NCBI GenBank assembly: GCA_012799095.1
Contig: JAAZLX010000091.1
Coordinates: forward strand, 1 to 34,035
Length of the DNA: 34,035 nucleotides
Direction: 5' to 3'
DNA from: Tissierellia bacterium
GTDB lineage: Bacteria; Bacillota; Clostridia; Peptostreptococcales; Acidaminobacteraceae
A model generated the notes under the pieces. The model worked only from the letters and a program-made list of their open reading frames with translations, did no database searches and was not told the DNA's origin. Shown here one piece after another: positions 1,196 through 23,158 of the stretch. The position numbers were made by a program, and so were the translations under genes. Numbering within the stretch: the first letter of the stretch is position 1; each line of letters begins with the position of its first letter.

Positions 1196-2842
1196 ATGAA
1201 GAACACAAAACTTCTTACACTTTTGGTGGCGATCGCTTTGATGATTGCAGTATTTGCCGGATGCACAGCCAGCAACCCATCCGCTGATACAAGCGCGCCG
1301 CCCGCCGCCGAGTCAGACGATTACGAGGAAGGTACTTCTGAAACGGATACGATCGTCAACACCACCGCAGCCGATAAGGTCATCCTTGTGGCCAGTTTTG
1401 GTACAAGCTTTAATCAGAGCCGTAACCTTGCTATTGGCGGCATCGAAACCGCGATTAAAAACGCCTACCCTGATTATCAAGTGCGCCGGGCGTTCACCAG
1501 CAAGATCATTATTGATAAGCTGGACGAACGCGAGGGCCTAAAGATTGACAACATCGCCCAGGCCATGGACAGGCTGGTGTTGGACGGGGTTAAAGAGGTG
1601 GTTGTTCAGCCAACCACAGTTATGAACGGTTTTGAATATGACGATGTCATCGCAGAAATCGCACCGTACGCTGACAAGTTTGAAAGTCTCAAAGTCGGCA
1701 AGTGGTTGCTGGCCGATGAGAAGGATTATGACGAGGTTGCGGATCTGCTGGTACAGGAGACCTCCGGATTCAGATCAGAGGGAACAGCCATCGTATATAT
1801 GGGTCACGGCACCGAGCATGAGTCTGGCTCTATATACACGAAGCTCCAAGAGACCATGAATACAAAGGGATATAACGATTACATCATCGGAAAGGTGGAG
1901 CATGGAATTGAAATTGACCAGATTCAGGAGATTTTGTCCGGCATGGATGTCAGCAAGGTTGTGCTACGTCCGTTTATGATCGTGGCAGGAGATCACGCCA
2001 ACAATGATATGGCTAGCGATGAGGATGACTCATGGAAAATAATCCTTAAAGAAGATGGGTATACCGTAGAAACTGTCCTTGAGGGTCTGGGACAAATCAA
2101 GGGTATACAGGAGCTTTTCATTCGCCACATCAAAGAGGCGCTCGAAGGAGATTCTCTGAGCGTAACACCGACGGCATCAGCCGTCGGTGTTACCGCGAAC
2201 CGTATCCAAAACGGCACATATTCCGTTGAGGTTGATTCTGATACATCCATGTTCAAAATCGTGGATTGCAAATTGACTGTAGAGGACAATTCTATGACGG
2301 CAGTTATGACGCTGAGCGGGCAAGGCTACTCACCCCTCTACATGGGCAAGATAGAGGATGCTCAAACCGACGAGCAGAATCAAATCAGCCATGTTCTTGC
2401 AGACGAAAAATACAGCTTTACTGTTCCCGTCTCTGCGCTTGACATCAATATTGATTGTGCGGGGCGTGGTGTAAAAAGCGGAAATTGGTATGACCATGTT
2501 GTTGTGCTTAAGTCGGGAGGTCTCCCTGCCGAAGCCTTTGTTCCCTGCCAAGTAGACGCAACTATGGTCGGCGGCACGGGAAGAGCAAGCATCGAATCTA
2601 CCGCAACTTTGCTTTATCAAAACGGAACCGATATAGCGCGTATAGTCTGGAGTAGCTCGAACTATACATACATGCTGGTGGATGGCGTGGAATATCTGCC
2701 TGTTAACACAGAAGGCAACTCCACTTTTGAAATCCCAGTCAAATTCGATATTGATATGAAAGTAATTGCTTGCACTGTTGCCATGGGTAGCCCCAAAGAG
2801 ATCGAATACAGCCTTTATTTCGACTCTTCCTCAATTAAGTAA
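1196..2842 (+). CDS. cbiK: Lipoprotein sirohydrochlorin cobaltochelatase (CbiK) with C-terminal extension
   Basis: CbiK inserts Co2+ into sirohydrochlorin to give cobalt-sirohydrochlorin, the entry step of the anaerobic B12 pathway. The core (about residues 60-320 of 548) shows ILVASFGTSF, MGHGTEH (His about 204) and AGDHANNDM (His about 267). These are the two metal-binding His motifs, spaced like those of enterobacterial CbiK. Unusually, the N-terminus is a lipoprotein signal peptide with lipobox FAGC (Cys 23), so the enzyme should sit on the outside of the membrane. Residues about 330-548 form an extra beta-rich part with two similar halves, for example GTYSVEV and GGTGRASIES; I do not know its family. 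I chose ATG 1196 over GTG 1187 because GGGG lies 8 bases upstream of it. It is the first gene behind the riboswitch and one base before the ABC binding protein. Confidence 0.88.
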   Translation: MKNTKLLTLLVAIALMIAVFAGCTASNPSADTSAPPAAESDDYEEGTSETDTIVNTTAADKVILVASFGTSFNQSRNLAIGGIETAIKNAYPDYQVRRAFTSKIIIDKLDEREGLKIDNIAQAMDRLVLDGVKEVVVQPTTVMNGFEYDDVIAEIAPYADKFESLKVGKWLLADEKDYDEVADLLVQETSGFRSEGTAIVYMGHGTEHESGSIYTKLQETMNTKGYNDYIIGKVEHGIEIDQIQEILSGMDVSKVVLRPFMIVAGDHANNDMASDEDDSWKIILKEDGYTVETVLEGLGQIKGIQELFIRHIKEALEGDSLSVTPTASAVGVTANRIQNGTYSVEVDSDTSMFKIVDCKLTVEDNSMTAVMTLSGQGYSPLYMGKIEDAQTDEQNQISHVLADEKYSFTVPVSALDINIDCAGRGVKSGNWYDHVVVLKSGGLPAEAFVPCQVDATMVGGTGRASIESTATLLYQNGTDIARIVWSSSNYTYMLVDGVEYLPVNTEGNSTFEIPVKFDIDMKVIACTVAMGSPKEIEYSLYFDSSSIK

Positions 2843-2843: not shown

Positions 2844-3965
2844 ATGTGTAAAAAAATAATTGTAACTTTCATGCTGCTGATAACGCTTGCGGGATGTGCA
2901 TCGAAACCGGTTGCGGTCAATTTCGGTGATCTCGAAGTCGTGGGTAGCATGGAACTGGACTATGCGCAACAGTTTGGCGTGGATTATCTTGCCGATGGAT
3001 GCTCTCTGGTAACGATCAATGAAAGCGGCCGTTTTCTTATTGTTCCAGAGGGACAGGAACCTCCGCATGGTATTGATAGCGACATCACAGTCCTGCGGCA
3101 GCCGATAGAAAACATATATCTCGCGGCGACTTCAGCCATGTGCTTATTTGACGCCTTGGATGGCTTGGGGCATATCTCCATGTCAGGCACAAGAGCAGAT
3201 GGATGGTATATTGAAAACGCACGGGATGCCATGGAGCGCGGCGATATTGCATACGCCGGCAAGTATAGCGCCCCGGACTATGAGATGCTGATCGCACAAA
3301 ACTGCGGCTTGGCGATTCAATCAACCATGATTTATCATAAGCCGGAGGTTCAGGAAAAGCTGGAGACATTAGGCATCTCGGTATTGGTGGAGCGTTCTAG
3401 TTATGAGCCGCATCCGTTGGGGAGAACTGAGTGGATTAAGCTGTACGGCTTGCTCTGCGAAAAAGAAAAGTTAGCCGAATCCTTGTTTCATGAACAAACA
3501 GCTTATCTCGCCGGACTCTCATCGCAGAGCACAGGCAAGACTGTTGCGTTCTTTTACATCAGCTCATCCGGCGGTGTCGTTGCGCGTAAAAGTGGTGATT
3601 ATGCTGTAAAGATGATTGAACTTGCTGGCGGCGAGTATGTGTTTGCCGATATCGGAAATCAGAGCAGCGCTACAGGGTCAGTCAATTTTGAGATGGAGCG
3701 CTTCTATTTAGAGGCTAAGGACGCTGACATCATAATATACAACAGTTCCATCGACGGTGAAGTGCACACACTGGATGAGTTGTTGGCAAAAAGCCATTTG
3801 CTTGCCGATTTCAAGGCGGTGCAAAGCGGAGATGTCTGGTGTACAAGCAAGAATCTTTTTCAAGAAACAACGGAGTTCGGGCTTATGATTTCGGACATGA
3901 ACCGGATGTTTTCAGACGATCTTGGGGGCTTAACAGAGCTTAACTATTATTATAAATTGCGGTGA
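2844..3965 (+). CDS. ABC transporter substrate-binding lipoprotein (BtuF/FecB type)
   Basis: The true start is ATG 2844, one base after the cbiK stop; the ORF track start at 2766 lies inside cbiK. The 373-residue protein begins with MCKKIIVTF and a lipobox LAGC, so it is a membrane-anchored solute receptor. Its layout (two lobes, segments such as DGLGHISMSG, a long helix, and a late DIIIYNSS region) fits the helical-backbone TroA/FecB/BtuF class that binds iron chelates, haem or corrinoids. With the following permease and ATPase it makes a complete importer. Its place behind a B12 riboswitch and next to a surface CbiK argues for a corrinoid, cobalt chelate or tetrapyrrole ligand; the ligand itself cannot be read from the sequence. 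Confidence 0.82.
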   Translation: MCKKIIVTFMLLITLAGCASKPVAVNFGDLEVVGSMELDYAQQFGVDYLADGCSLVTINESGRFLIVPEGQEPPHGIDSDITVLRQPIENIYLAATSAMCLFDALDGLGHISMSGTRADGWYIENARDAMERGDIAYAGKYSAPDYEMLIAQNCGLAIQSTMIYHKPEVQEKLETLGISVLVERSSYEPHPLGRTEWIKLYGLLCEKEKLAESLFHEQTAYLAGLSSQSTGKTVAFFYISSSGGVVARKSGDYAVKMIELAGGEYVFADIGNQSSATGSVNFEMERFYLEAKDADIIIYNSSIDGEVHTLDELLAKSHLLADFKAVQSGDVWCTSKNLFQETTEFGLMISDMNRMFSDDLGGLTELNYYYKLR

Positions 3966-3969: not shown

Positions 3970-4986
3970 ATGAAAAAAGGTACAGCGAAAAGAGATATTC
4001 GGTACGTGCGTTACTTGATTGTAACGCTTGTGCTTCTGCTTCTTTTTGCCGCACTGATAGCACTGAATATTGGAATCGGCAGTATTAAGATTTCGCTTGG
4101 GGATGTATTGAAAGCTGGCACTATTGAATACGATATTCTCTGGAAAGTGCGGCTGCCGCGTATGGTTGCTGGCATCATCCTGGGCGGTGCGCTGGCGCTG
4201 TCGGGTTTTTTACTCCAGACCTTCTTTAATAACCCTATTGCCAGTCCGTTTGTGCTGGGTATATCCTCCGGAGCGAAGTTGGTTGTTGCACTCGTCATGG
4301 TGTTTGTACTCAGCAAGGGTTCTACCGTAAACTCCGCAACGATGGTTTTATCAGCGTTTGTCGGGGCGATGCTTTCCATGGGATTCGTTCTTTTGATTGC
4401 CAGACGGGTGAAACGTGCGTCAGTGCTCATTATCAGTGGCGTAATGATCGGCTATATATGCTCGGCCATTACCGATTTTATTATTACATTTGCAAGCGAT
4501 GAAAGCATTGTCAATCTGCACCATTGGTCGCAGGGTAGCTTTTCGGGAACATCATGGGGCGACGTCCGGGTGATGGCGATAGTTGTGCTTATTGCGTCTG
4601 TTTTTACATTTACTCTGTCGAAACCCATCGGTGCGTACCAGCTTGGGGAACAATACGCGCAGAGTGTTGGAGTGAATATCAAGACTTTTCGGATTATCCT
4701 TGTATTGCTATCCAGTATTTTATGCGCAAGTGTAACAGCTTTTGCGGGGCCGATTTCGTTCGTTGGGGTTGCCGTTCCTCACCTTATCAAGGCATTTACA
4801 AGGACGTCCAAGCCGCACATTGTAATCCCATTGTGTTTTCTTGGCGGCGCTGTGTTCTGCTTGGGATGTGATTTAATTGCCCGTACTGTTTATGCGCCAG
4901 TAGAAATGAGCATCAGCTCCGTCAGCTCACTGTTCGGTGCGCCTATTGTCATTTGGATTATGGCGAGAAGGGTGGCGCGTGATTGA
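3970..4986 (+). CDS. ABC transporter permease, FecCD/BtuC family
   Basis: This 338-residue, very hydrophobic protein has about ten membrane segments and the family signatures KVRLPRMVAGIILGGALALSG near residue 57, NNPIASPFVLGISSGA near residue 88, and GPISFVGVAVPHL near residue 259 (the region contacting the ATPase). FecCD permeases form a homodimeric channel for siderophores, haem or vitamin B12. It begins 4 bases after the binding protein gene and overlaps the ATPase gene by one base (TGATG), so the three are translated together as one importer. Confidence 0.93.
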   Translation: MKKGTAKRDIRYVRYLIVTLVLLLLFAALIALNIGIGSIKISLGDVLKAGTIEYDILWKVRLPRMVAGIILGGALALSGFLLQTFFNNPIASPFVLGISSGAKLVVALVMVFVLSKGSTVNSATMVLSAFVGAMLSMGFVLLIARRVKRASVLIISGVMIGYICSAITDFIITFASDESIVNLHHWSQGSFSGTSWGDVRVMAIVVLIASVFTFTLSKPIGAYQLGEQYAQSVGVNIKTFRIILVLLSSILCASVTAFAGPISFVGVAVPHLIKAFTRTSKPHIVIPLCFLGGAVFCLGCDLIARTVYAPVEMSISSVSSLFGAPIVIWIMARRVARD

Positions 4987-5744
4987 TGGAATATTTCTTT
5001 AAGACAGAAAACCTTACTGTTGGCTACGACGGCAAGCCTATTGTAAATAATATTGATGTGTCTATCAAAAAAGGTCAGATACTTAGCCTTATCGGCCCAA
5101 ACGGTTCAGGGAAATCGACTATATTAAAAAGCATTACAAAGCAGCTAAAAGTCATCGATGGAGTGGTATTTCTCAGCGGCAGTCCCATTAACGATATCAA
5201 CTCACGGGATATGGCTCGTCGTGCAGCTGTGGTGCTAACTGAACGCCCCAAGCCGGAGCTTATGACTTGTGGGGATGTGGTAGCGATTGGCCGATATCCG
5301 TACACAGGTATGCTTGGAATCCTGTCCGCTTCAGATAAGGAAAAGATCAATGAGGCATTGTGTTTAGTCAACGCTCTTGATCTGAAAGACCGATGTTTTT
5401 CGGAAGTTAGTGATGGACAACTTCAAAGAATTATGTTAGCGAGGGCAATATGTCAAGAGCCGGAAATTATTATTTTGGATGAACCAGTATCGTTTTTGGA
5501 CATACGTTATGCTGTTGAAATATTAGATATTTTACGCCGTATGGCCAGTGAGCGGGGCGTGACCGTCATTATGTCGCTGCATGAACTTAACTATGCTAAG
5601 CGCGTGTCAGACCGTGTAATGTGCGTCAAGGATGGCTATATGTTGCACCTTGACACGCCGGAGGCTGTTTTTACAAAAGAAATCATCAGCCGGCTGTATG
5701 ATCTATCGGACGGTGTCTATGCCGAGCTTTTCGGAGGATTATGA
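4986..5744 (+). CDS. ABC transporter ATP-binding protein (FecE/BtuD type)
   Basis: This ATPase powers the importer of the two preceding genes. It has Walker A GPNGSGKST (about residue 38), Walker B IIILDEP followed by VSFLDI, and the switch His in MSLHELN. The signature motif reads VSDGQ rather than LSGGQ, a mild deviation seen in some importers. At 252 residues it has the usual length. ATG 4986 is preferred over TTG 4983 and shares its A with the permease stop. It ends one base before cbiD, so uptake genes and ring synthesis genes are one transcription unit. Confidence 0.92.
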   Translation: MEYFFKTENLTVGYDGKPIVNNIDVSIKKGQILSLIGPNGSGKSTILKSITKQLKVIDGVVFLSGSPINDINSRDMARRAAVVLTERPKPELMTCGDVVAIGRYPYTGMLGILSASDKEKINEALCLVNALDLKDRCFSEVSDGQLQRIMLARAICQEPEIIILDEPVSFLDIRYAVEILDILRRMASERGVTVIMSLHELNYAKRVSDRVMCVKDGYMLHLDTPEAVFTKEIISRLYDLSDGVYAELFGGL

Positions 5745-5745: not shown

Positions 5746-6843
5746 ATGAACACTCGTTTTGTTGGAGGTAAATTGCTGCGCCGTGGCTACACAACCGGTA
5801 GCTGTGCAGCGGCTGCGGCAAAAGCTGCGGCTACCATGCTACTGACTGGAACTCTATACAATGAGGTGACGCTCACGACACCTGCTGGAATCGTTCTGGC
5901 ATTGGATGTGTTGGATGCCAATTTTACACCGAGCAGTGTTTGCTGCGCTATTCAAAAAGATAGCGGCGACGACCCGGACATCACAAATGGATGTCTTGTA
6001 TACGCCCATGTATCGCTTGCGCCCGCGGGGATCGCTATCAGCGGCGGCGAAGGGATCGGGCAAGTGACCAAGCCCGGACTCGATCAGCCCGTTGGTGCTC
6101 ACGCAATTAACACGGTACCACGACGGATGATCGATGACGAGTGCAAAGCTGTATGTGCGAAGTATGGCTATGACGGCGGCCTGTGTGTCATCATCTCCAT
6201 ACCTGGAGGCGAGGAATTGGCACGGCGTACATTCAATCCGCGCATGGGCATCGTGGGTGGATTATCCGTACTCGGCACTACGGGTATCGTGGAGCCTATG
6301 AGTGAAAAAGCCGTTGTCGATACCTTTCGGGCGGAACTCAGCGTACTGTACGAAGCCGGACATCGAAACATAACCCTTACCATAGGCAATTATGGCGAGG
6401 AATTCGCACGAACCAGAATGCATCTGCCGCTTGAATCACATGTAAAATGCTCGAACTTCATTGGAGAGACTTTGGCGGCAGCAGCGGAGAAGGGGTTCAA
6501 GAAAGCCCTTCTAATCGGGCATATCGGAAAGCTCTGCAAGCTGGGAATAGGCATCACCAACACCCACTCAAGTTATGGCGATGGGCGGATGGAAACGCTG
6601 ATTGCCTGTGCGTTGGAAGCGGGCGCAAGCCTTGATACACTTCTTAAAATACAGGAGTGTGTAAGTACCGATGCTGCATTGGAGTGCTTGCAAGACGCTG
6701 GCCTTCTGCAAGAGAGTATGCGGTTGCTTTCCGACAGGATTAAGTACACCCTTGAGCGGCATATTGCCGCACACCTAGATATTAGCTTAGTATGTTTTAA
6801 GGGAATGGGAGAGAAAATGGAGGAGTTGTTTCGGTATGATTAA
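5746..6843 (+). CDS. cbiD: Cobalt-precorrin-5B C1-methyltransferase (CbiD)
   Basis: CbiD methylates C1 of cobalt-precorrin-5B using S-adenosylmethionine, giving cobalt-precorrin-6A. The N-terminal hallmark RRGYTTGSCAAAAAKAA is present from residue 9, followed by the family segments FNPRMGIVGGLSVLGTTGIV and LLIGHIGKLCKLGIG. The ORF track start at 5632 lies inside the ATPase gene. ATG 5746 has CGGAGG upstream and gives 365 residues, the normal length. It overlaps cbiF by 8 bases. Confidence 0.95.
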   Translation: MNTRFVGGKLLRRGYTTGSCAAAAAKAAATMLLTGTLYNEVTLTTPAGIVLALDVLDANFTPSSVCCAIQKDSGDDPDITNGCLVYAHVSLAPAGIAISGGEGIGQVTKPGLDQPVGAHAINTVPRRMIDDECKAVCAKYGYDGGLCVIISIPGGEELARRTFNPRMGIVGGLSVLGTTGIVEPMSEKAVVDTFRAELSVLYEAGHRNITLTIGNYGEEFARTRMHLPLESHVKCSNFIGETLAAAAEKGFKKALLIGHIGKLCKLGIGITNTHSSYGDGRMETLIACALEAGASLDTLLKIQECVSTDAALECLQDAGLLQESMRLLSDRIKYTLERHIAAHLDISLVCFKGMGEKMEELFRYD

Positions 6844-7597
6844 AGTGCATTTTGTAGGGGCGGGTCCTGGCGCGTCCGATTTAATTACTCTGCGGGGTAA
6901 GTCACTTCTTGAAAGAGCAGATGTCATTATCTATGCGGGGTCGCTTGTCAATCCTGAACTGCTTGCTTATGCAAAGCAAGCATGTGAGATATACAACAGC
7001 GCCGAAATGACACTCGATGAGGTGATCGACATCATACAAGCCGCAGTGGAAGTCGGCAAAGCTGTCGTGCGGCTGCACACGGGCGATCCGAGCCTTTACG
7101 GCGCTATACGGGAGCAGATGGACAAACTGAGCATTCTAGGTATCAGCTATGAGATATGTCCCGGCGTGTCCAGCTTTAATGCCGCCGCCGCATCCTTGCA
7201 GGCGGAATACACCCTGCCCGGCATAACACAAACCGTAATTATTACAAGAGCGGCGGGTAAAACACCAGTGCCGGAATGCGAAGGTATTCGCGCGTTGGCC
7301 TCTCATGGGGCGACCATGGTGCTGTTTCTGAGCGTGGGATTGCTAGAAACGGTATCGAAAGACCTGATCGCCGGAGGATACGCTCCCGATACACCGGCTG
7401 TCATCGTTTACAAAGCGAGCTGGCCGGAGGAAAGAATCGTGCGATGTAGTGTTCAGACACTTTCTAAAAGTGCAATCGAAAATAAAATTACAAAAACAGC
7501 ATTGATCTGCGTAGGTAATTTCTTGGGGGATACTTACGAATTATCCCGGTTGTACGCCCCGGATTTTTCCACAGAGTATCGGAGGGCGAAGGAATGA
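6836..7597 (+). CDS. cbiF: Cobalt-precorrin-4 C11-methyltransferase (CbiF)
   Basis: CbiF adds the C11 methyl group to cobalt-precorrin-4. It belongs to the tetrapyrrole methylase family: the N-terminal GAGPGASDLITLRG loop binds S-adenosylmethionine, and YAGSLVNPELL is a CbiF/CobM signature. Further motifs are RLHTGDPSLYGA (about residue 80) and CPGVSSFNAAAA (about residue 110). The length of 253 residues is typical. The gene overlaps both neighbours by 8 and 4 bases, as expected for translational coupling. Confidence 0.95.
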   Translation: MIKVHFVGAGPGASDLITLRGKSLLERADVIIYAGSLVNPELLAYAKQACEIYNSAEMTLDEVIDIIQAAVEVGKAVVRLHTGDPSLYGAIREQMDKLSILGISYEICPGVSSFNAAAASLQAEYTLPGITQTVIITRAAGKTPVPECEGIRALASHGATMVLFLSVGLLETVSKDLIAGGYAPDTPAVIVYKASWPEERIVRCSVQTLSKSAIENKITKTALICVGNFLGDTYELSRLYAPDFSTEYRRAKE

Positions 7598-8409
7598 GGA
7601 TAGCGGCCATCGCTTTTTCGGCTTGCGGTGCGGTTCTTATGGATCGGCTTATGGCTCTGACTACGCAAGGGCATGAGGTCGATGGCTATATAACGGTACG
7701 TCATGCCGAGGGAACGGCGTTTGAGCCATTCGATTCCGTATATGAAATCACATCACGGCTGTTTCACCGCACAGACGCTCTTTTGTTTATCGGCGCTTGC
7801 GGCATCGCAGTTCGCTCTATTGCTCCGCTGATTAAAAGCAAGCTGTCTGATCCCGCCGTGGTTGTATGCGACGAAACAGGGCGTTTTGCCATCAGTTTGC
7901 TCTCGGGACATGCGGGAGGGGCTAACGGGCTAACAGAACAAGTCGCCGGACTTATCGGAGCGGTCCCCGTTATCACGACGGCCAGCGATTCCCATGCTAT
8001 TCTTGGAGACGCGCAGCAGCCGCGAAACCTAGTCCTGGGGATTGGATGTCGTCGAGGAACTCCGGCGGAAACCATCGAGCGTGCGGCGACAATCCTGCTG
8101 TGGGATCAACAAATTCCCCTTGCCCGCGTCTGCGAGGTTGCCACGATTGATGTGAAGCGAAACGAGGAGGGCTTGCTCGGTTTCACAAAGGCACATAAGC
8201 TTCCGTTGCGGTTCTATTCGGCGGAGGAGCTGAAAAAGGTTGATGGCGAGTTTATGTCATCAGAAATGGTCTTGAAGACTGTCGGCGTTGACAATGTTTG
8301 CGAACGTGCCGCTACACTATGCGGCGGTACAGGCAAGCTGATACTGAGAAAAACCGCTAAAGACGGCGTAACAGTAGCGGTATTTGAGAGGGAGATCAAC
8401 CATGAATAA
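7594..8409 (+). CDS. cbiG: Cobalt-precorrin-5A hydrolase (CbiG), lacking the central domain
   Basis: CbiG opens the delta-lactone of cobalt-precorrin-5A and releases acetaldehyde. The N-terminal domain (about residues 1-130) has LLFIGACGIAVRSIAP and LLSGHAGGANGLTE. The C-terminal domain (about 145-270) has RNLVLGIGCRRGT, EEGLLGF, SSEMV and GVDNVCERAA. Between them only about 15 residues (SHAILGDAQQ...) join ITTASD to PRNLVLGIGC, where most CbiG proteins carry a central domain of roughly 70-90 residues. The total of 271 residues is correspondingly short against a usual 330-360. Frame and start are intact, so this is an in-frame absence, not a frameshift. Activity is uncertain. Confidence 0.88.
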   Translation: MRIAAIAFSACGAVLMDRLMALTTQGHEVDGYITVRHAEGTAFEPFDSVYEITSRLFHRTDALLFIGACGIAVRSIAPLIKSKLSDPAVVVCDETGRFAISLLSGHAGGANGLTEQVAGLIGAVPVITTASDSHAILGDAQQPRNLVLGIGCRRGTPAETIERAATILLWDQQIPLARVCEVATIDVKRNEEGLLGFTKAHKLPLRFYSAEELKKVDGEFMSSEMVLKTVGVDNVCERAATLCGGTGKLILRKTAKDGVTVAVFEREINHE

Positions 8410-9133
8410 ACTATATGTAATCGGCTTCGGTCCGGGCGACGAGGGCAACATGACGGGATCATGCATGAAATATCTGAGTAAATCCGATGTGATTGTAGGC
8501 TATTCGGGTTATACAAAGCTGCTGCGCACTATATTCCCGGATAAGAGCTATCATGAAACCGGTATGACGCAGGAGACAGAGCGCTGCCGTTATGCAATTA
8601 AGTTAGCCGAAGAGGGCAAAACCGTGAGCGTTGTTTCAAGCGGCGACAGCGGCGTTTATGGTATGGCAAGCCTGATTTTTGAACTTGCAGAGAATGTACG
8701 GGATGTTGTGATTGAGGTTATACCCGGCGTGACGGCAGCGGTCAGTGGAGCTGCGCTGCTTGGTGCGCCGCTCGGTCATGATTTTGCTGTAATCAGCTTA
8801 AGCGACCTGCTGACCCCGTGGGAAGTCATTGAAAGGCGTTTGCGCGCCGCAGCGAATGGCGATTTTGCAATATGCCTGTACAATCCGGGGAGTAAAAAAA
8901 GGGCGGGACATCTGTCAAGCGCGTGCGACATATTGCTGGAGAGCCTGCCGACCGACCGCTTGTGCGGTATCGCACGCGATATCGGCCGCGATGGGCAGTC
9001 CATATCCCTGATGACGCTGGAACAGCTTCGAGGAGTAAAGGCTGATATGACTGAAACGGTTTTCATTGGCAACTCAGGGACGCGCCAGATTCGTGACCGC
9101 ATGATTACGCCAAGAGGATATCGGGGTGATTAA
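8402..9133 (+). CDS. cbiH: Cobalt-precorrin-3 / precorrin-3B C17-methyltransferase (CbiH)
   Basis: CbiH methylates C17 of cobalt-factor III and drives ring contraction. The tetrapyrrole methylase fold shows in IGFGPGDEGNMTG at the N-terminus, VGYSGYTKLL (a CbiH/CobJ signature), VSSGDSGVYGMA and EVIPGVTAAVSGAALLGAPLGHDF. I place the start at ATG 8402, six codons inside the ORF track entry, because GGGAG lies upstream and the protein then begins MNKLYVIGFG like its relatives. This gives 243 residues and an 8-base overlap with cbiG. Confidence 0.94.
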   Translation: MNKLYVIGFGPGDEGNMTGSCMKYLSKSDVIVGYSGYTKLLRTIFPDKSYHETGMTQETERCRYAIKLAEEGKTVSVVSSGDSGVYGMASLIFELAENVRDVVIEVIPGVTAAVSGAALLGAPLGHDFAVISLSDLLTPWEVIERRLRAAANGDFAICLYNPGSKKRAGHLSSACDILLESLPTDRLCGIARDIGRDGQSISLMTLEQLRGVKADMTETVFIGNSGTRQIRDRMITPRGYRGD

Positions 9134-9878
9134 GGTGGTTGTATTCGGTGGCACGACCGAGGGGCGCAGATTATGTGAATTCTGCGCGGAGCATGCAGTG
9201 CCGATTCTATATTGTGTTGCGACTGAGGACGGCGCACGTGTGGTCAGCCATTTGCCCAACATAAGTGTACATATTGGCAGGCTTGGGGTAGGCGAAATGG
9301 CAGAACTGCTTTCACAGAATGCTCCCGCTCATGTCTATGACGCAACGCACCCCTATGCCGAGGAAGCCAGTCGAAATATTGAGGCGGCTTGTCATCAAAC
9401 GGGCATGCCTTTGCTTCGAGTCGTGAGAGAAAATGCTGATCCGCAGGGATGCATTGCTTTTGATAGCATGGATAATCTGTTGACGTGGCTCGAAAGCGAG
9501 CCGGGTTACATCTTTGTGACAACCGGCTCATCCCATGCGAGAGCTTTCGCATGTTTGCGTGATTTTCAAAACCGCGTGTGGCTACGCATATTACCGAGCA
9601 TAGAGAGCCTGAAAACTTGCCTTGAACTTGGATACCGTCCTGATAGGCTTATCTGCATGCAGGGACCGTTCTCGGAGGATTTGAACTATGCAATGTTCAA
9701 GGCCGTAAATGCCAACATCTTGGTAACAAAAAACTCAGGGAGCACGGGCGGTTTTTCAGAAAAGGTTCGGGCGGCCAGAAGCCTTGAGATGCGCACGGCG
9801 GTGCTGTCTAAACCAGCTGAATCAATGGGTATATCTTTAGAAGAGGCGTGTAAGCGGTTAATGGAGTTGACGATATGA
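9126..9878 (+). CDS. cbiJ: Cobalt-precorrin-6A reductase (CbiJ)
   Basis: CbiJ reduces cobalt-precorrin-6A to 6B with a nicotinamide cofactor. The N-terminal VVVFGGTTEGRRL is the dinucleotide-binding loop, and YDATHPYAEEAS (about residue 75) and TKNSGSTGGFSEK (about residue 195) are family motifs. Translation starts at GTG 9126, overlapping the cbiH stop by 8 bases. The length of 250 residues is normal. It is followed by an ATGA overlap with the CbiET gene that encodes the next reaction. Confidence 0.93.
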   Translation: MIKVVVFGGTTEGRRLCEFCAEHAVPILYCVATEDGARVVSHLPNISVHIGRLGVGEMAELLSQNAPAHVYDATHPYAEEASRNIEAACHQTGMPLLRVVRENADPQGCIAFDSMDNLLTWLESEPGYIFVTTGSSHARAFACLRDFQNRVWLRILPSIESLKTCLELGYRPDRLICMQGPFSEDLNYAMFKAVNANILVTKNSGSTGGFSEKVRAARSLEMRTAVLSKPAESMGISLEEACKRLMELTI

Positions 9879-11065
9879 AGAAGGTTTCCATAGTCGGCGT
9901 TGGCTTGGGAGAAAGCACCATAACGGATCATGCGCGGCAGGCGATTGCACAAGCCGAGGTTCTGCTGGGCGCACCGAGAATGCTGGAGTTATTCAAAGAC
10001 TTAAACAAAGCATCTTACCCTCATTATCTCCCGGGGGACGTGGCAGCTTTCGTCGCAGACGAGGATGCACAGCAGTTTGCCGTGCTTGTGTCGGGCGATG
10101 TGGGGTTTTACAGTGCGGCGGCGGGACTGACCGAAGCGCTTGCCGCGCATGATGTTCAATTTGTACCGGGCATATCCACAGTCTCCGCTTTTTTTGCAAA
10201 GCTGAAGCTTCCATGGCAGGACGCTGCGTTTGTCAGCGCGCATGGCCGCGACATAAACATCGCAGATACGGTTCGGCGTAATCGCCTGACATTTTGCCTT
10301 ACCGGGAACAACACAAGCGAAATCGGAGCAGTGATGTGCAAGGCCGGTTTTGGTGATATAAAAGTTTGCATTGGTGAAAATCTTGGCATGGAAAACGAGC
10401 GCGTCCGTAAAGTGAATGCAGGAGCTTTGACGCAGGAGTGTCACCCTTCCCTGACGGTGTTGCTGTTTATGAATGGAGCCTATGATGACAGGTCGCCATG
10501 CGGTCTGCCGGACGAAAGCTTTGTTCGCCTTGCGGGAATTCCTATGACTAAGAGTGAAACACGGGCGCTTGTATTGTCTAAACTGAAACTGCGCCCGGAT
10601 TTCGTGTGCTGGGACATTGGGGCGGGAACCGGCTCAGTTACAGTGGAAATGGCGCTTTCGGCCTATCGCGGCCATGTATATGCCGTCGAGCGCCGCGTGG
10701 ACGGTATCCCTTTGATAGAGCAAAACTGTATAGCCTTTCATGTTGGCAATGTAACGGCGATTTGTGCGGAAGCCCCGGAAGCCCTCGGCCCTCTGCCTGT
10801 GCCTGACGCGGTATTCATCGGTGGAAGCGGAGGTGAACTCGGCAGGGTCATATCCGCTGTTTTGGATAAAAACCGGGGGGCGCGAATTGTTGTTACGGCT
10901 GTGACGCTTGAAACCGTGTCGGCTGCTTTGACCATGTTTGAAGATGCCGGACTAGAGCCGGAAATTGTTCAGGTAAATATCGCACGTGGTAAACATGCGG
11001 GTAAATCGCATCTGATGGAAGCGCAAAACCCCATCACAATTTTGAGTGCAGGAGGGAAAGCTTGA
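9875..11065 (+). CDS. cbiET: Fused cobalt-precorrin-6B C5,C15-methyltransferase/decarboxylase (CbiE-CbiT)
   Basis: This 396-residue protein joins two enzymes that are separate in many anaerobes, in the order used by aerobic CobL. Residues 1-190 are CbiE (tetrapyrrole methylase type: VGVGLGESTITDHA, LVSGDVGFYSAAAGL, PGISTVSAFFAKL), which methylates C5. Residues about 200-396 are CbiT (Rossmann methyltransferase type: MTKSETRALVLSKL, WDIGAGTGSVTVEMA, FIGGSGGEL), which methylates C15 and decarboxylates the C12 acetate. Both S-adenosylmethionine sites look intact. The stop overlaps the TTG start of cbiA by 4 bases. Confidence 0.94.
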   Translation: MKKVSIVGVGLGESTITDHARQAIAQAEVLLGAPRMLELFKDLNKASYPHYLPGDVAAFVADEDAQQFAVLVSGDVGFYSAAAGLTEALAAHDVQFVPGISTVSAFFAKLKLPWQDAAFVSAHGRDINIADTVRRNRLTFCLTGNNTSEIGAVMCKAGFGDIKVCIGENLGMENERVRKVNAGALTQECHPSLTVLLFMNGAYDDRSPCGLPDESFVRLAGIPMTKSETRALVLSKLKLRPDFVCWDIGAGTGSVTVEMALSAYRGHVYAVERRVDGIPLIEQNCIAFHVGNVTAICAEAPEALGPLPVPDAVFIGGSGGELGRVISAVLDKNRGARIVVTAVTLETVSAALTMFEDAGLEPEIVQVNIARGKHAGKSHLMEAQNPITILSAGGKA

Positions 11066-12387
11066 AAAGATTTCTAATAGCGGGAACGAATAGCGGGTGC
11101 GGGAAAACCACTGTGGTCTGCGCCGTACTATCTGCGTTGAAAGCGCGTGGTATCACGCCGACAGCATTTAAATGCGGCCCGGATTACATAGACCCCATGT
11201 TCCATCGAGCGGTTTCAGACATCCGGGCATATAATCTTGACCCGTTCTTTTTCGATGCCTATGGTCTTCGCGCCCATTTAGCGTCTCACGCCGGAGAAAT
11301 ATCGGTAATAGAGGGCGCGATGGGCTACTACGACGGCATTGTGGCGAGTGACGAAGCGTCGGCCTATACCGTCGCACGGGAGACGAACACGCCGGTCATA
11401 CTGATCGTCAGCGCTAAAGCCGCTGGCAATTCGCTTTGTGCCGTGATAGAGGGTTTTTTACGGCATCGGAAAGACAGTCATATAGCCGGGGTCATCTTCA
11501 ACGACGCAGGCGCGTCCCGTTATTACGACTTGCAGATCATTGCGGAAAAAGCGGGGCTTCGCGCCTATGGATATATGCCGCGTAAGGACGAATGGTCAAT
11601 GCCAAGCCGCCATCTCGGTCTGCTGAAAACAGATGAGATAGCGGGACTCTCGGCTACCCTATCAGCGCTTGGAACCCAAGCGGAGCAGTCTTTAGATATA
11701 GACGGCTTGATAGCTTTGTCAAAGACCGCTCCTAAATTACCTGTTACTAGCAAAACCGAACGCATCCATACAAAGCAAATTCGTCTTGCCGTAGCGCGAG
11801 ACGAAGCGTTTTGCTTTTTGTACGAGGAAAACCTGGAACTATTACGGGAGCTGGGCTGCGAGCTTGTTTTTTTCAGCCCATTGCACGATAATGCCATCCC
11901 CGCCAATATCAATGGATTATATCTCTGCGGCGGTTACCCTGAACTTTATAAACAAGTATTGTCAAAAAATACATCCATGCGTGAGAGTATCCGGGCAATG
12001 TTGGAGAGCGGCCTGCCGACAATAGCAGAGGGCGGCGGGTTTATGTACCTCCACGATCATTTAGACGGAGTGAATATGTGTGGTGTAATCCACGGTGCGG
12101 CATTTGAAACGCCAAGGTTGCAGCGTTTTGGATATATCGAGCTGACCGCCGAGCGGGATAATATGCTCTGCAAAGCGGGCGGTTCAATACGCTCCCAGGA
12201 GTTCCATTATTGGGACAGCGACGCGCCGGGTGAAGCGTTTACCGCGCGAAAGGCGGGGCGTGATGTCTTATACTCTTGCATCCATGCCACGGACACGCTG
12301 CATGCCGGATTTCCACATCTATACTTCCCTGCGAATCCCAACGTCGCGGAACGCTTTGTAGAGAGGATGGCTCGATATGAAGGGTAA
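11062..12387 (+). CDS. cbiA: Cobyrinate a,c-diamide synthase (CbiA) with the glutaminase Cys replaced by Gly
   Basis: CbiA amidates the a and c acetate side chains of cobyrinate using ATP and a nitrogen donor. The N-terminal synthetase domain has the P-loop-like GTNSGCGKTT, FKCGPDYIDPMFH and VIEGAMGYYDG. The C-terminal class-I glutaminase-like domain (about residues 250-430) has GLYLCGGYPELY and the catalytic-type His in EFHYWD. However, the nucleophile elbow, normally AECGG, reads AEGGG (Gly 324, codon GGC at 12031-12033), so glutamine hydrolysis should be lost while ammonia-dependent amidation may remain. The start is TTG 11062 with GGAGGG upstream. At 441 residues it is near full length. 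Confidence 0.93.
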   Translation: MKRFLIAGTNSGCGKTTVVCAVLSALKARGITPTAFKCGPDYIDPMFHRAVSDIRAYNLDPFFFDAYGLRAHLASHAGEISVIEGAMGYYDGIVASDEASAYTVARETNTPVILIVSAKAAGNSLCAVIEGFLRHRKDSHIAGVIFNDAGASRYYDLQIIAEKAGLRAYGYMPRKDEWSMPSRHLGLLKTDEIAGLSATLSALGTQAEQSLDIDGLIALSKTAPKLPVTSKTERIHTKQIRLAVARDEAFCFLYEENLELLRELGCELVFFSPLHDNAIPANINGLYLCGGYPELYKQVLSKNTSMRESIRAMLESGLPTIAEGGGFMYLHDHLDGVNMCGVIHGAAFETPRLQRFGYIELTAERDNMLCKAGGSIRSQEFHYWDSDAPGEAFTARKAGRDVLYSCIHATDTLHAGFPHLYFPANPNVAERFVERMARYEG

Positions 12388-13090
12388 ATTATTCGGTATT
12401 GGTGTAGGACCCGGCGACCCGGACTTGCTGACGCTCAAGGCAATCCGCGCGATACAGAGTTGTGATGTGATTGCTATTCCTAACTCCGGGGCGGGTGATC
12501 GGACCGCTTTTCGCATTGCCGAATCTTATCTAAATGGAAAAGAGATACTCGAATGTCGTTTTGCAATGGAGAAGGATATGGCAAAGCGGCGTGAAGCTCG
12601 GCAAACAGCGGCAAACCAAATCATGGAGCGCCTTGAAGCAGGCAAAAGCGTAGGTTTTGCTACATTGGGCGATCCGACCACTTATTCCACTTATATGTAT
12701 GTGCATCGGATTATCGCCTGTAAAGGATTTGAGACAGAGATCATACCGGGTATTGCGTCATATTCTGCGGCAGCAGCTGCGTTGGGCATTGCGCTTTGCG
12801 AGGGGGACGAGGTGCTCACGATCATTCCCGCGAGACATAGCGAAAGCATTGATGAACTACTGGACTATCCGGGCAATAAGATTATCATGAAATCCCGGGA
12901 TAACCTAAAGTATGTCCTTGTCAAGTTAAAGGAGCGTGGATATGGAGCCCAAACGCATATTGTGTCCCGCGTTACCATGGATGGAGAACAGATTTATGCA
13001 GACATTGAGGAGTTTGAAAAAGCGTATGACTCAGGCTATTTTACGATAGCAATTGTGAAAGAGGAGGTAAAAGCGGATGCACCTAAGTGA
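12377..13090 (+). CDS. cbiL: Cobalt-factor II / precorrin-2 C20-methyltransferase (CbiL)
   Basis: CbiL adds the C20 methyl group to cobalt-factor II, the second methylated intermediate after CbiK action. IGVGPGDPDLLTLKA at the N-terminus, FATLGDPTTYSTYMY (about residue 93) and EIIPGIASYSAAAAALG (about residue 122) identify the tetrapyrrole methylase and the CbiL/CobI branch. The length of 237 residues is normal. It acts early in the pathway but sits late in the operon. It overlaps cbiA by 11 and cobT by 14 bases. Confidence 0.94.
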   Translation: MKGKLFGIGVGPGDPDLLTLKAIRAIQSCDVIAIPNSGAGDRTAFRIAESYLNGKEILECRFAMEKDMAKRREARQTAANQIMERLEAGKSVGFATLGDPTTYSTYMYVHRIIACKGFETEIIPGIASYSAAAAALGIALCEGDEVLTIIPARHSESIDELLDYPGNKIIMKSRDNLKYVLVKLKERGYGAQTHIVSRVTMDGEQIYADIEEFEKAYDSGYFTIAIVKEEVKADAPK

Positions 13091-14129
13091 AGTATTATCC
13101 TGTATTAAACCTGTTGACATGTCAGCCGCAGATGCTTGCATCGCCAAATTCGATGAGGTGGCGAAACCATTGGGCAGCCTTGGCAAGCTGGAGAAACTGC
13201 TCGCACGCATCGCGGCGGTCTCGAGAACGACCGACATCGACATTGGCCGCAAGGCTGTCGCTGTTTTTTGCGCCGACAATGGCGTGGTACGGCGCGGTGT
13301 CGCACAGGGAGGGCAAGAGATTACAACCGCTGTAGCAGGAATGTTGGGTATCGGAAAGGCCAGCGTATGCGTGATGGCCAAATCCTGCGGTGCGGAGGTG
13401 TTCAATATAGACATTGGTATGGCTGATACCGTGAACGGCTTGCGCGACTGCAAACTGATGCATGGCACCGATGATATGACCGAAGGCCCTGCCATGAACC
13501 GGGAGACCGCCGAAAAAGCTGTAATAATCGGCATTGAAATGGTAAAGGAACTGATGGACAAGGGCTATGGCCTGATTGCCACAGGCGAGGCCGGTACCGG
13601 AAATACCACAACTTCCAGTGCAGTCTGCGCTGTGTTGCTAGGCCGTTCGGTGCGAGAAGTAACAGGGCGTGGGGCGGGCCTCAGTTACGAGGGACTTAAC
13701 CGGAAACTTGCGGCCATTGAACAGGCGATATCCGTCAATCAACCCAATCCCTCCGACCCGATGGAAGTGCTGTATAAGCTGGGAGGTTTGGATATCGCTG
13801 CCATGACCGGTGTATTCCTTGGCGGTGCGTTATACAAAATTCCGATAGTGATGGACGGCTTTATTTCCGGGGCGGCAGCCCTTATCGCAGTGCGCCTTTG
13901 CCCTGATGTAAAGGGCTATATTCTACCCTCGCACGGCAGTGATGAACCGGGCGCGCGCTTCGTGTTGGATGAGCTTGGCTTTTTCCCCATTATCCAGGCG
14001 GGTATGCGGTTAGGGGAAGGCACGGGAGCAGTCGCATTGTTTCCACTGTTGGATATGGCCTTATCCGTTTATCGCGATGCGGCGACCTTTGCGGATATTC
14101 AGGTCGAGCAATACAAGCGAATGACATGA
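13077..14129 (+). CDS. cobT: Nicotinate-nucleotide:dimethylbenzimidazole phosphoribosyltransferase (CobT)
   Basis: CobT makes alpha-ribazole phosphate from a lower-ligand base and nicotinate mononucleotide, activating the nucleotide-loop base. Visible motifs are KPLGSLGKLEKLLA (about residue 31), FCADNGVVRRGVAQGGQEIT (about residue 63), ATGEAGTGNTTTSSA (about residue 166), DGFISGAAALIA and, near the C-terminus, GMRLGEGTGA, which holds the catalytic Glu. It is 350 residues long, as usual. No gene for making dimethylbenzimidazole is in the window, so the base may come from elsewhere or be another benzimidazole or purine. Confidence 0.95.
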   Translation: MHLSEVLSCIKPVDMSAADACIAKFDEVAKPLGSLGKLEKLLARIAAVSRTTDIDIGRKAVAVFCADNGVVRRGVAQGGQEITTAVAGMLGIGKASVCVMAKSCGAEVFNIDIGMADTVNGLRDCKLMHGTDDMTEGPAMNRETAEKAVIIGIEMVKELMDKGYGLIATGEAGTGNTTTSSAVCAVLLGRSVREVTGRGAGLSYEGLNRKLAAIEQAISVNQPNPSDPMEVLYKLGGLDIAAMTGVFLGGALYKIPIVMDGFISGAAALIAVRLCPDVKGYILPSHGSDEPGARFVLDELGFFPIIQAGMRLGEGTGAVALFPLLDMALSVYRDAATFADIQVEQYKRMT

Positions 14130-14653
14130 TAATACTTGTTTTAGGCCCAAACGGGAGTGGCAAAAGCATGTATGCGGAAAAAATAGCCGCCGGATTCTCT
14201 ACGCCCTCGCTTTACTATATCGCTACAATGATCCCCTTTGGTGATGAAGGGAAAGCACGAGTGGATAAGCACAAGAAGCAGCGTATGGTCTATGACTTTG
14301 TAACGGTTGAGCGGCCTTTCGGTGTATCAGAGATACCGATACCTTCCGACTCCGTTGTTTTACTGGAGGATGTATCCAATATGTTGGGCAACGTTCTGTT
14401 TAGCGGCGAGCAGGATGGAAATGAGGATAGTGTGTTTGACGATATCAGGGCTTTGTGCGCTAAGTGCCGCGCTTGTGTATTTGTGTCCATAGATGGCTTG
14501 ACCGTTCAACTGGAATACAACGAGGAAACACGCGGCTATATCGACGCACTGAGTCGGTTGAACCGCAGGCTTTCTGATTTCGCGGATGTTGTTATACAAA
14601 TGCAAAACGGAAATCCGGTTTTTTTGAAGGGAGAGTTTCATGCAATGGATTAG
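14126..14653 (+). CDS. cobU: Adenosylcobinamide kinase / adenosylcobinamide-phosphate guanylyltransferase (CobU)
   Basis: CobU phosphorylates adenosylcobinamide and then attaches GMP to give AdoCbi-GDP. The P-loop GPNGSGKSMYAEKIA is at the N-terminus (most CobU have GGARSGKS here), and the guanylyl-accepting His lies in DKHKKQR (about residue 51). LLEDVSNMLGN provides the Walker B region. At 175 residues it matches the family. It overlaps cobT by 4 bases and cobS by 14, which fits their consecutive roles. Confidence 0.9.
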   Translation: MIILVLGPNGSGKSMYAEKIAAGFSTPSLYYIATMIPFGDEGKARVDKHKKQRMVYDFVTVERPFGVSEIPIPSDSVVLLEDVSNMLGNVLFSGEQDGNEDSVFDDIRALCAKCRACVFVSIDGLTVQLEYNEETRGYIDALSRLNRRLSDFADVVIQMQNGNPVFLKGEFHAMD

Positions 14654-15401
14654 AGCGGTGGTTCTTATGTTTTCCACCTATACGCGCATAAAAGTGCCGC
14701 AGATAAAGTGGGATGACAAGGCCATGCGGCTCGCCATCGCCTTTTTACCTTTTGTCGGCATTGTTTTAGGCTGTTTAATGTGGGGCTGGTATTGGGTTTG
14801 TACGGTGTTTGAATTCAACGCAGTGCTATTTGCCGCCGTCGCACTGGCTCTGCCGATTTTTGTCACAGGTGGTATCCATATGGATGGTTACTGCGATACC
14901 TCGGATGCACTTGCATCGTGGCAGACTTCGGAACGCCGTTTGGAAATCATGAAGGACCCTAATGTCGGAGCATTTGCGCTGATTCGTGTGTGTGTATACC
15001 TCCTGCTCAGCTTCGCCTTGCTCCATGAGCTTTTTTTGCGCGGGGAGATCCTTGGACTTTGCTTTATCTATACGCTGTCGCGTTGCTTCGCTGTATGGAG
15101 CGCTATTACGTTGCCGAACGCTCGAAAGGGCGGTATGTTGGCTGCGTTCACCGACAACGCCGACCGCCGCGCGGCGGGTATTGTACTAGCCTTATTGTTC
15201 GCCGTGTCGGTAGCGGGGTTGCTATGGGTAGCACCTCCAAACGGTATAATGGCGCTCATTTTGTGCCTGCCTGTCACGCTTTGGTATAGGGGCATGGCAA
15301 GGAAGCATTTTGGTGGAGTGACGGGCGATACGACAGGCTTTTATTTGCAAACAATAGAATTGTTCATGCTTGTCGGGTTGTTGGCCGGGGGCATCTTATG
15401 A
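14640..15401 (+). CDS. cobS: Adenosylcobinamide-GDP ribazoletransferase / cobalamin synthase (CobS)
   Basis: CobS joins AdoCbi-GDP to alpha-ribazole (phosphate) in the membrane. The 253-residue protein has about six hydrophobic segments, the conserved metal-binding region GGIHMDGYCDTSDALAS (about residue 78) and MKDPNVGAFA just after it. The C-terminus GGVTGDTTGF is also typical. The CDTSDALAS form is common in clostridial CobS. It starts at ATG 14640 behind AAGGGAG. Confidence 0.94.
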   Translation: MQWIRAVVLMFSTYTRIKVPQIKWDDKAMRLAIAFLPFVGIVLGCLMWGWYWVCTVFEFNAVLFAAVALALPIFVTGGIHMDGYCDTSDALASWQTSERRLEIMKDPNVGAFALIRVCVYLLLSFALLHELFLRGEILGLCFIYTLSRCFAVWSAITLPNARKGGMLAAFTDNADRRAAGIVLALLFAVSVAGLLWVAPPNGIMALILCLPVTLWYRGMARKHFGGVTGDTTGFYLQTIELFMLVGLLAGGIL

Positions 15402-15976
15402 GTATGAAGAAATTTATGTTAATAAGGCACGGAAAAACACGGGGCAACTTGGAACGCCGCTATATAGGGGACTTAGAGGAACAACTTTGCGAAGAGGGAA
15501 TACATGATTTGTATTCTTTGGCATCGTCAGGTGATTTACCACATATTGACGCTCTAATAAGTAGTCCTGCTGTGCGATGCCGTCAAACGGCCGAGATTCT
15601 GTTTCCCAACATTTTCTATAGGATATGTCCTATTTACGAGATTGACTTTGGCGTTTTCAAGGGAAAAAATGCAAATGATTTGCTGGGTAACAAAGAATAC
15701 GAAGCATGGCTGGAAACAAATTGCACGGGTGATATACCGGGTGGCGACAGCGTTCATGAGTTCAAGAATCGGTGCTGTGATACATTTCAGAGCATTTTGG
15801 AGGCAAGCCAAGAAGGAACGACAGCTCTCGTAATTCACGGGGGAAATATTATGGCGATACTCGAACGGTATGCGTTGCCGAAACGGAACTTCTACGATTA
15901 TCACGTACCTAATTGCGGATTTTTTCTTTGCCGCTATGAATACGGTAATCTAAAGATTGAGAGGAATGGCTCATGA
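15398..15976 (+). CDS. cobC: Histidine phosphatase, probable alpha-ribazole phosphatase (CobC)
   Basis: This is a phosphoglycerate-mutase-like histidine phosphatase: LIRHGKTRGN carries the phosphorylated His, SPAVRCRQTAEI the second Arg, and VIHGGNIMAI the second His. The context between CobS and CbiB makes removal of the 5' phosphate from alpha-ribazole phosphate or cobalamin phosphate the likely job. The family includes many look-alikes, so the assignment rests partly on position. ATG 15398 gives an ATGA overlap with cobS; ATG 15404 is a possible alternative start. The length is 192 residues. Confidence 0.85.
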   Translation: MSMKKFMLIRHGKTRGNLERRYIGDLEEQLCEEGIHDLYSLASSGDLPHIDALISSPAVRCRQTAEILFPNIFYRICPIYEIDFGVFKGKNANDLLGNKEYEAWLETNCTGDIPGGDSVHEFKNRCCDTFQSILEASQEGTTALVIHGGNIMAILERYALPKRNFYDYHVPNCGFFLCRYEYGNLKIERNGS

Positions 15977-16941
15977 CAGTGATGATTTGGTCAATGGGCG
16001 CATTGCTCACAGGCTTTGTATTAGATGCAGCATTCGGTGATCCTTATAATTTCCCTCACATCGTTCGTTGGATGGGAACCCTGATCAACACGCTGGACAA
16101 GCGGTTACGCCATACAATTTCAGGTGGCATTTTACTGGTTTGCTTCACGATTATTCTTTGCGCGGGCATTCCGTTTGCCGTATTGTTTCTGTGCTATCGG
16201 TTTGTTCCGCCGATAGGTTATGTTATTGAGAGTTTTTTGTGCTGGCAGTTTTTGGCGGCCAAGTCGCTCAAGATCGAGAGTATGAAAGTTTACCATAGCT
16301 TGATGAAAAACGACACCGAGGGTGCTAGAAAAGATGTGTCCATGATTGTCGGGCGGGATACTTCGGTGCTGGACAAAGACGGCATCGTCCGTGCGGCAGT
16401 GGAAACCATAGCGGAAAACACCTCGGACGGTGTGGCGGCTCCCCTCTTTTATATCATGCTGGGCGGTGCTCCGCTGGGGTGTTTGTATAAGGCTGTCAAC
16501 ACAATGGATTCGATGGTCGGGTACAAGAATGATAAGTATCTCCTTTTTGGACGCGCTGCTGCGAAAATAGACGATGCTCTAAACTATATACCATCCCGCC
16601 TTTGTGCGCAGTTGATGATTGCCGCTGCATTCCTGATGCAATACGACGGTAAAAACGCCTTCCGCATTTGGCGGAGAGATAGACGTAAGCACGCCAGCCC
16701 CAATTCTGCGCAAACAGAGGCGGCGTGCGCGGGTGCGCTGGGTGTTCGCTTGGCGGGGCCGATCTCATATTTCGGACAAATACGCGAGAAGCCCTATATC
16801 GGGGATGATACTCGGTCAATTTTAGCTGACGATATCATATGCGCCAACCGGCTGATGTACATGTCATCCGTTCTGACGTTGGTTCTGGCTTTGTTATTTC
16901 GATTAATGGCGATGGGAGTGATACTATTTGCAAGCTTATGA
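15973..16941 (+). CDS. cbiB: Adenosylcobinamide-phosphate synthase (CbiB)
   Basis: CbiB attaches the aminopropanol (phosphate) arm to adenosylcobyric acid in the membrane. Hallmarks are LDAAFGDPYNFPHIVRWMG at the N-terminus, IVGRDTSVLD and the strongly conserved ETIAENTSDGVAAPLFY (about residue 140). A long set of membrane helices is present and the length of 322 residues is normal. It overlaps cobC by 4 bases and cobD by 14, and the CobD product is its co-substrate. Confidence 0.94.
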   Translation: MTVMIWSMGALLTGFVLDAAFGDPYNFPHIVRWMGTLINTLDKRLRHTISGGILLVCFTIILCAGIPFAVLFLCYRFVPPIGYVIESFLCWQFLAAKSLKIESMKVYHSLMKNDTEGARKDVSMIVGRDTSVLDKDGIVRAAVETIAENTSDGVAAPLFYIMLGGAPLGCLYKAVNTMDSMVGYKNDKYLLFGRAAAKIDDALNYIPSRLCAQLMIAAAFLMQYDGKNAFRIWRRDRRKHASPNSAQTEAACAGALGVRLAGPISYFGQIREKPYIGDDTRSILADDIICANRLMYMSSVLTLVLALLFRLMAMGVILFASL

Positions 16942-18815: not shown

Positions 18816-19339
18816 AGCAGGGATTGATTCACCTTTACACCGGAGAAGGTAAAGGAAAAACGACGGCGGCGCTCGGATTGCTTCTTCGTGCGCACGGGCG
18901 GGGTATGCGCGTCGTTCTTGTCCAGTTTCTCAAAGGTCGCGAAACCGGGGAAATAAACTCGTTGAACCACTTGCCTGGTGTTACCGTCATGCGTAATACG
19001 AGAGATTTTGGATTTTATAAATATGAAAATAAGCAAGAAAGAGCGGAAATAAACCAACAAAACAATAAAAACCTGATAGAAGCGTCCCGCTTGGCTAATG
19101 AGGGGCTTTGTGATTTGCTGGTTCTGGATGAAATCTGCTCAGCATATAACTGCGGCGCGCTGGATGTCGAATTTGCCGATACACTGATTATAAACAAGCC
19201 ATCCGGCTTGGAACTGGTATTGACCGGCAGGAACGCTCCTAATAGCTTTATAGAGTCTGCGGATTACATCACTGAATTTGTTAAGCGCAAGCATCCGTAT
19301 GATAGGGGCATTGCCGCACGGGAAGGAGTCGAATTCTAA
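18812..19339 (+). CDS. cobO: Corrinoid adenosyltransferase (CobO/BtuR type)
   Basis: This enzyme transfers the adenosyl group from ATP to cob(I)alamin or cob(I)yrinate diamide, producing the adenosylated forms used by CbiP, CbiB and Cob[17 protein letters not shown] is the P-loop, [10 protein letters not shown] and [13 protein letters not shown] (Walker B) follow, and [10 protein letters not shown] lies near the C-terminus. The length of 175 residues is normal. It overlaps cbiP by 4 bases and cbiC by one base. Confidence 0.93.
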
Positions 19340-21765: not shown

Positions 21766-21830
21766 TGACGGGATGCTATTATAGATATCTTGTACATATA
21801 GTCGACCAGTCGGCTAGAGGAGGAAATCAC

Positions 21831-23150: not shown

Positions 23151-23158
23151 GTGTAGCA

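Follow-up and report, generated by a model that had tools for sequence, protein, structure and literature searches.

A predicted surface-anchored CbiK chelatase with divergent NEAT domains as a candidate device for the salvage of B12 precursor rings in Clostridia

Why should a cobaltochelatase carry a lipoprotein leader and a long C-terminal extension, and stand at the head of an operon for an ABC importer? This question is raised by the open reading frame 1196-2842 (+ strand; 548 residues, starting with MKNTKLLTLLVAIALMIAVFAGC) in the window, a stretch of 34,035 nucleotides of contig JAAZLX010000091.1 from the draft genome of a Tissierellia bacterium (GCA_012799095.1, here G000). A preliminary description had proposed that the protein is a surface CbiK with a novel two-repeat extension, which captures its ligand outside the cell and hands it to the importer rather than feeding the cytosolic pathway. 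We favor the view, at a probability only somewhat above even (about 0.55), that the fusion is a membrane-anchored extracytoplasmic chelatase-haemophore for B12 precursor salvage, which would take an external sirohydrochlorin-type ring, insert cobalt outside the cell and provide the product for import and use by CbiL or CbiH.

The leader (1196-1264, +) comprises a hydrophobic stretch followed by the lipobox that the preliminary description had noted, VFAG-C (MKNTKLLTLLVAIALMIAVFAG before the cysteine at residue 23). Most CbiK proteins in related clusters have comparable motifs, and with processing as predicted the mature fusion protein is best read as a surface-anchored lipoprotein. The CbiK domain (1376-2146, +; residues 61-317) matches PF06180 over the full length of the profile (positions 1-262) with 259.9 bits against a cut-off of 26.2, and its solved relatives are PDB 1qgo from Salmonella (1.5e-43), 9b86, or FetB (5e-40), and 2xvx (7e-33). 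Alignment columns place its predicted active site at E147, H204, E235 and H267, equivalent to E89, H145, E175 and H207 of the Salmonella enterica enzyme, and these catalytic residues are intact in essentially all related CbiK members. On the other hand, the score of 227 bits with NF047852, the equivalog model for the CbiK sirohydrochlorin cobaltochelatase, lies under the cut-off of 400, and judged by these profiles the domain is a homologue rather than an equivalog of the S. enterica type. CbiK had been taken to be normally cytosolic, but extracytoplasmic CbiK homologues have precedents in IhtB and FetB (9b86, 'Heme-binding protein FetB'), which we take to be one protein. Another extracytoplasmic member of the family is 2xvx, the periplasmic CbiK of Desulfovibrio vulgaris, an organism for which two CbiKs with distinct roles have reportedly been described (Lobo 2008); it has neither NEAT domains nor a lipobox fusion, and D. 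vulgaris has the full pathway.

The C-terminal part of about 220 residues falls into two halves (residues ~331-447 and ~447-548) that are homologous to each other in profile-profile comparison (probability 97.8%, E 6.5e-13), and the first, r1, is encoded by 2186-2536 (+) and the second, r2, by 2534-2839 (+). We identified them through family alignments and structure models rather than by single-sequence family search, in which the window protein has no PF05031 match above the cut-off and by itself matches no family in the extension; the two repeats were modeled separately, because single-domain rows were misplaced when r1 and r2 were aligned together. AlphaFold2 models of both are beta sandwiches (mean pLDDT 93.0 for r1 and 93.7 for r2), which agrees with the two similar beta-rich halves proposed earlier. 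In Foldseek, every structure at ranks 1-45 for the r1 model is a NEAT protein or Shp, a haem protein related to these (TM up to 0.65), and for r2 ranks 1-21 consist exclusively of NEAT proteins, among them IsdX1 (3sik; probability 1.00, TM 0.78). Moreover, the r1 family profile matches the structure of IsdX2 NEAT5 (E 2e-5), and weak PF05031 matches were obtained for 11 of 22 relatives with r1 (best E 8e-5) and 7 of 18 with r2 (best E 4e-4). Structure prediction and family search, which had been suggested as a check on the extension, therefore agree on NEAT for each repeat, and by modeled fold both are divergent NEAT domains, so that the extension is not novel as had been claimed.

Canonical NEAT domains bind haem through an SXXXXY helix and a YXXXY strand (PMC4143258), and a motif comparison found neither kept in r1 or r2. 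In r1 only the first tyrosine is retained (YDHVV in the window protein), within an invariant WY of the family that is usually followed by D[HR], and an aliphatic residue stands where the second motif tyrosine is expected. Both haem motifs are absent from r2, whose family has an invariant GG[ST]G[RK] along with Met530 and Tyr538. Because the fold is that of NEAT but the haem motifs are not kept, the ligand of these domains may differ from haem. As a side observation, r1/r2 domains are also repeated in multi-domain proteins of ~800-1200 residues (loci L045, L089, L091 and L092), some of them within a CbiK/ABC cluster.

The NEAT fold of both repeats brings to mind haem or iron acquisition of the Iht/Isd kind, in which NEAT would take haem, CbiK would remove the iron, and the ABC importer would take up haem or iron, the more so as the CbiK homologues IhtB and FetB have been proposed to remove or bind haem iron. 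IhtB of Porphyromonas gingivalis is a CbiK-like lipoprotein beside an ABC importer (PMC10913741), and FetB of P. gingivalis has been described in a review as a chelatase making Mn-porphyrin (PMC13402209). This system resembles ours in combining a CbiK-family lipoprotein with a periplasmic binding protein, a permease and an ATPase, but it has no NEAT domain, has a TonB receptor as partner, and work on it has concerned haem/iron or Mn-porphyrin; the accessible text of the sources describes no membership in a cbi operon. Likewise, the NEAT haemophores (IsdX1, IsdX2, Isd and clostridial NEAT proteins) share the beta-sandwich fold, the surface location and an ABC importer as partner, whereas r1 and r2 lie below the Pfam cut-off, do not keep the haem motifs, are fused to a chelatase and are under B12-riboswitch control. 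We consider a haem or iron system improbable, given the loss of the haem-binding motifs, the B12 riboswitch and cbi genes that flank the system, and the absence of the r1 family from 217 genomes without CbiD (see below).

The operon is headed by a cobalamin riboswitch aptamer (RF00174; 819-1031, +; 36.8 bits, gathering threshold 31.5), of the kind that also heads 15 related clusters. The fusion gene comes first, directly before an ABC importer, as had been stated, and is followed by genes for a lipoprotein substrate-binding protein of the Peripla_BP_2 family (2844-3965, +; PF01497, 2.7e-25; lipobox LAGC), a FecCD/BtuC-family permease (3970-4986, +; PF01032, 1.2e-79; among NCBIfam models closest to BtuC, though short of that model's cut-off) and, by family searches, a FecE/BtuD-type ATPase (4983-5744, +). 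The operon then runs directly into cbiD (5746-6843, +; PF01888, 5.7e-98), cbiF (6836-7597, +; TP_methylase), cbiG (7594-8409, +; assigned from sequence) and cbiH (8402-9133, +; TP_methylase), the last three collinear with related clusters, and on through cbiJ and cbiET (9126-11065, +; TIGR00715, TIGR02467 and TIGR02469) to cbiA and cbiL (11062-13090, +; NF002204 and TIGR01467, above cut-off), CbiL being the enzyme whose substrate is cobalt-sirohydrochlorin. Downstream lie cobT, cobU, cobS, cobC, cbiB, cobD, a truncated cbiP, btuR/cobA and cbiC (13077-19971, +).

Because of the riboswitch and the fit of the transporter family, the most serious rival is a corrinoid importer. In this reading B12, cobinamide or another finished corrinoid would be bound by the NEAT-like domains and by CbiK, the latter as a mere binder, and passed to a BtuFCD-like transporter. 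The permease is indeed closest to the BtuC model, and CbiK-ABC clusters without NEAT domains are also under B12 riboswitches. However, a pure binder would not need the catalytic residues that essentially all members keep, and such an importer would not account for the retention of cbiF-G-H-D-J-ET by genomes in which the searches found nothing to supply the substrate of these enzymes; BtuFCD itself, of the same ABC transporter family and also under riboswitch control, includes neither chelatase nor NEAT lipoproteins. We therefore hold the corrinoid importer to be unlikely. Far less plausible is cobalt scavenging, in which Co(II) or a cobalt-porphyrin would be collected at the surface to supply B12 enzymes with cobalt. 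The usual cargo of FecCD-type importers is a large chelate and not the free metal, the same protein has two ring-binding NEAT folds, and the missing ring biosynthesis described next would be left unexplained, although control by a B12 riboswitch is typical of cobalt importers (PMC7689651).

To ask where the substrate of the cbi enzymes might come from, we turn to the genes for ring synthesis in G000, a draft that is 95% complete and in which absences rest on family searches covering HemB, HemC, SUMT, Met8/SirC, CbiX and CobN, with HemA, HemL, HemD and ferrochelatase outside their scope. HemB, HemC and CobN were not found in these searches, and no CbiX and no Met8/SirC-type precorrin-2 dehydrogenase domain reached the cut-off. 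The TP methylases of the genome are CbiF, CbiH, CbiE and CbiL together with the rRNA methylase RsmI and YabN, and there is no SUMT among them. The fusion protein is the single CbiK of the draft and the sole chelatase detected in the searches for CbiX, CobN and Met8/SirC, in line with the preliminary description, and the search elsewhere in the genome for cbiX or a cytosolic cbiK that it had proposed found neither. From its gene content the bacterium seems unable to build the B12 precursor ring, and as the ring-making enzymes were not found, CbiL would be without substrate unless there is an outside source. With corrin genes present and, of the upstream genes, HemB, HemC, SUMT and SirC searched for in a draft and not found, G000 is a candidate member of the precorrin-2 salvagers of Shelton et al. 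2018, part of a published, predicted genomic class of 'tetrapyrrole precursor salvagers' (accessible text of PMC6461909 and PMC8123684). Precorrin-2 salvagers have the corrin ring and loop genes and are without any of the upstream genes; the class is a prediction from gene absence, and the accessible text names no uptake machinery.

Among 291 genomes sampled from the class, 74 have CbiD and 217 do not. The r1 family is present in 13 of the 74 CbiD+ genomes and in none of the 217 CbiD- genomes, and HemB is missing in 10 of the 13 r1+ versus 14 of the 61 r1- CbiD+ genomes (Fisher p 4e-4, uncorrected for kinship). HemC is also missing in nine of these ten, and the nine belong to several families and are 93-100% complete. 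This argues against an ordinary cobaltochelatase of the de novo pathway whose upstream genes are missing only from an incomplete draft and whose signal sequence is incidental, as do the lipoboxes throughout the family and the fusion to an extracytoplasmic fold; we regard this explanation as very improbable, even though CbiK activity would be required, no other chelatase was found and the draft is 95% complete. Conversely, HemB is present in three r1+ genomes of the sample and in G012, and 14 CbiD+ HemB- genomes, most of them also without HemC, have no r1, so that the surface system is not the sole answer to a missing ring and other routes are needed there. Among individual carriers, CbiK was not found in G049, which has r1, and CbiF, CbiH and CbiE were not found in G037, which has the surface system and CbiL. 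Neither CbiL nor SUMT was found among all TP_methylases of G242 (L083) and G220 (L086), in which corrin synthesis would consequently have to start at factor III, and CbiL is probably missing from G170, G284 and G312 as well. A 295-residue methylase of G094 that had been taken for RsmI was rejected as such and is CbiL.

With the operon running directly into cbi genes and the enzymes for the starting ring apparently missing, the likeliest role of the system is to feed the cbi pathway from outside. The first proposal is supported in so far as it concerns surface anchoring (lipobox), an extension of a tetrapyrrole-binding type (NEAT fold) and coupling to the importer (gene order, fusions and riboswitch), and its predicted capture outside the cell is part of our reading as well, but the idea that the protein does so rather than feed the cytosolic pathway is not supported. 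In the salvage reading, which draws on the lipoprotein signal, the CbiK active site, the NEAT folds, the operon order, the riboswitch, the undetected upstream genes and conservation across Clostridia, ligand, extracellular catalysis and transport are predicted steps. The two NEAT-like domains would first bind a tetrapyrrole that other organisms have made, the likeliest being sirohydrochlorin (factor II) or something close to it, for instance factor III or siroheme. The CbiK domain would then insert Co(II) on the outside of the membrane, with displacement of Fe in the case of siroheme. The cobalt tetrapyrrole would be handed to the lipoprotein binding protein and on to the BtuCD-like ABC transporter, whereupon cytosolic CbiL (or CbiH) would accept the ring and the cbi enzymes of the operon would finish the corrin; with B12 in ample supply, the riboswitch would turn the system off. 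Whether this extends to a lifestyle is an even call: some Clostridia may no longer make the tetrapyrrole ring and instead take sirohydrochlorin-type rings from neighbors, with cobalt insertion by NEAT-coupled CbiK at the surface, dedicated ABC import and, without CbiL, entry at factor III.

The same six parts (CbiK, r1, r2, binding protein, permease and ATPase) recur across dozens of Clostridia, mostly beside cbi genes; named genomes contributed 19 loci, the majority of which have them, and other genomes of the class have them too, with CbiK in one or two copies. Their order is conserved, whether they are all separate genes (L039-L041, L083-L087) or joined as CbiK+r1 (L033-L038), r1+r2 (L049), r1+r2+binding protein (L042) or r2+binding protein (L094-L097). 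Neighboring genes that are variously fused are good evidence for one device, and functional coupling of chelatase, NEAT domains and importer is supported by this conserved order, the alternative fusions and control by the B12 riboswitch, which was detected at the head of 16 of the 23 NEAT-linked loci scanned, the window included. In a tree, the NEAT-linked CbiKs (38 rows and one from Treponema) cluster together and apart from leaderless CbiK. The Treponema sp. locus (L043) has its spirochaete CbiK near ABC and cbi genes and is without NEAT domains. Contrary to the expectation that NEAT-free CbiK-ABC clusters lack B12 riboswitches, one was present in 9 of the 11 such control loci scanned, and riboswitch control is hence not specific to the NEAT type, which belongs as a single branch to a larger B12-linked CbiK-ABC group. 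The CbiK-type chelatases of L103-L113, lipoproteins for the most part, are accompanied by a separate permease and ATPase and have no NEAT domains, and several of these loci show a tandem duplication of CbiK.

Four SUMT-retaining genomes with a surface CbiK (G198, G078, G207 and G012) have a second, leaderless CbiK, which shares a cluster with SUMT and CbiL in the first three (L099, L102 and L116, respectively) and lies on another contig in G012 (L119). This looks like a division of labor, in which the foreign ring would go to the surface chelatase and the home-made ring to its cytosolic counterpart.

The salvage reading would answer how 'half-pathway' bacteria make B12. Comparative genomics predicts cobamide makers that need precorrin-2 or an earlier ring, the accessible text naming no route of entry, and the operon is a concrete and widespread candidate for this route with a defined gene set. 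If true, B12-synthesis intermediates would be shared between cells, biosynthetic metal insertion would occur outside the cytoplasm, and NEAT domains would serve ligands other than haem; a new reading is also suggested for the CbiK lipoprotein of Porphyromonas, as P. gingivalis is reported to be without the steps to precorrin-2 (accessible text of PMC6461909 and PMC8123684). Relatives of each part are known, and the open-licence literature yielded no paper on 'NEAT domain' and 'CbiK' jointly, nor any that describes their combination or the uptake route.

Several minor features of the window were also recorded. The cbiP gene (17958-18815) encodes 285 residues instead of the usual ~490, the C-terminal glutaminase domain having gone by a clean internal deletion that spares the N-terminal portion and ~35 residues at the very end; the assembly may be in error here, or this CbiP needs another source of ammonia. 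Genes for an Rnf-type complex (21765-25853) lie directly 3' of the cobalamin cluster, and a group II intron domain match (54 bits) occurs at 21246-21323 on the - strand.
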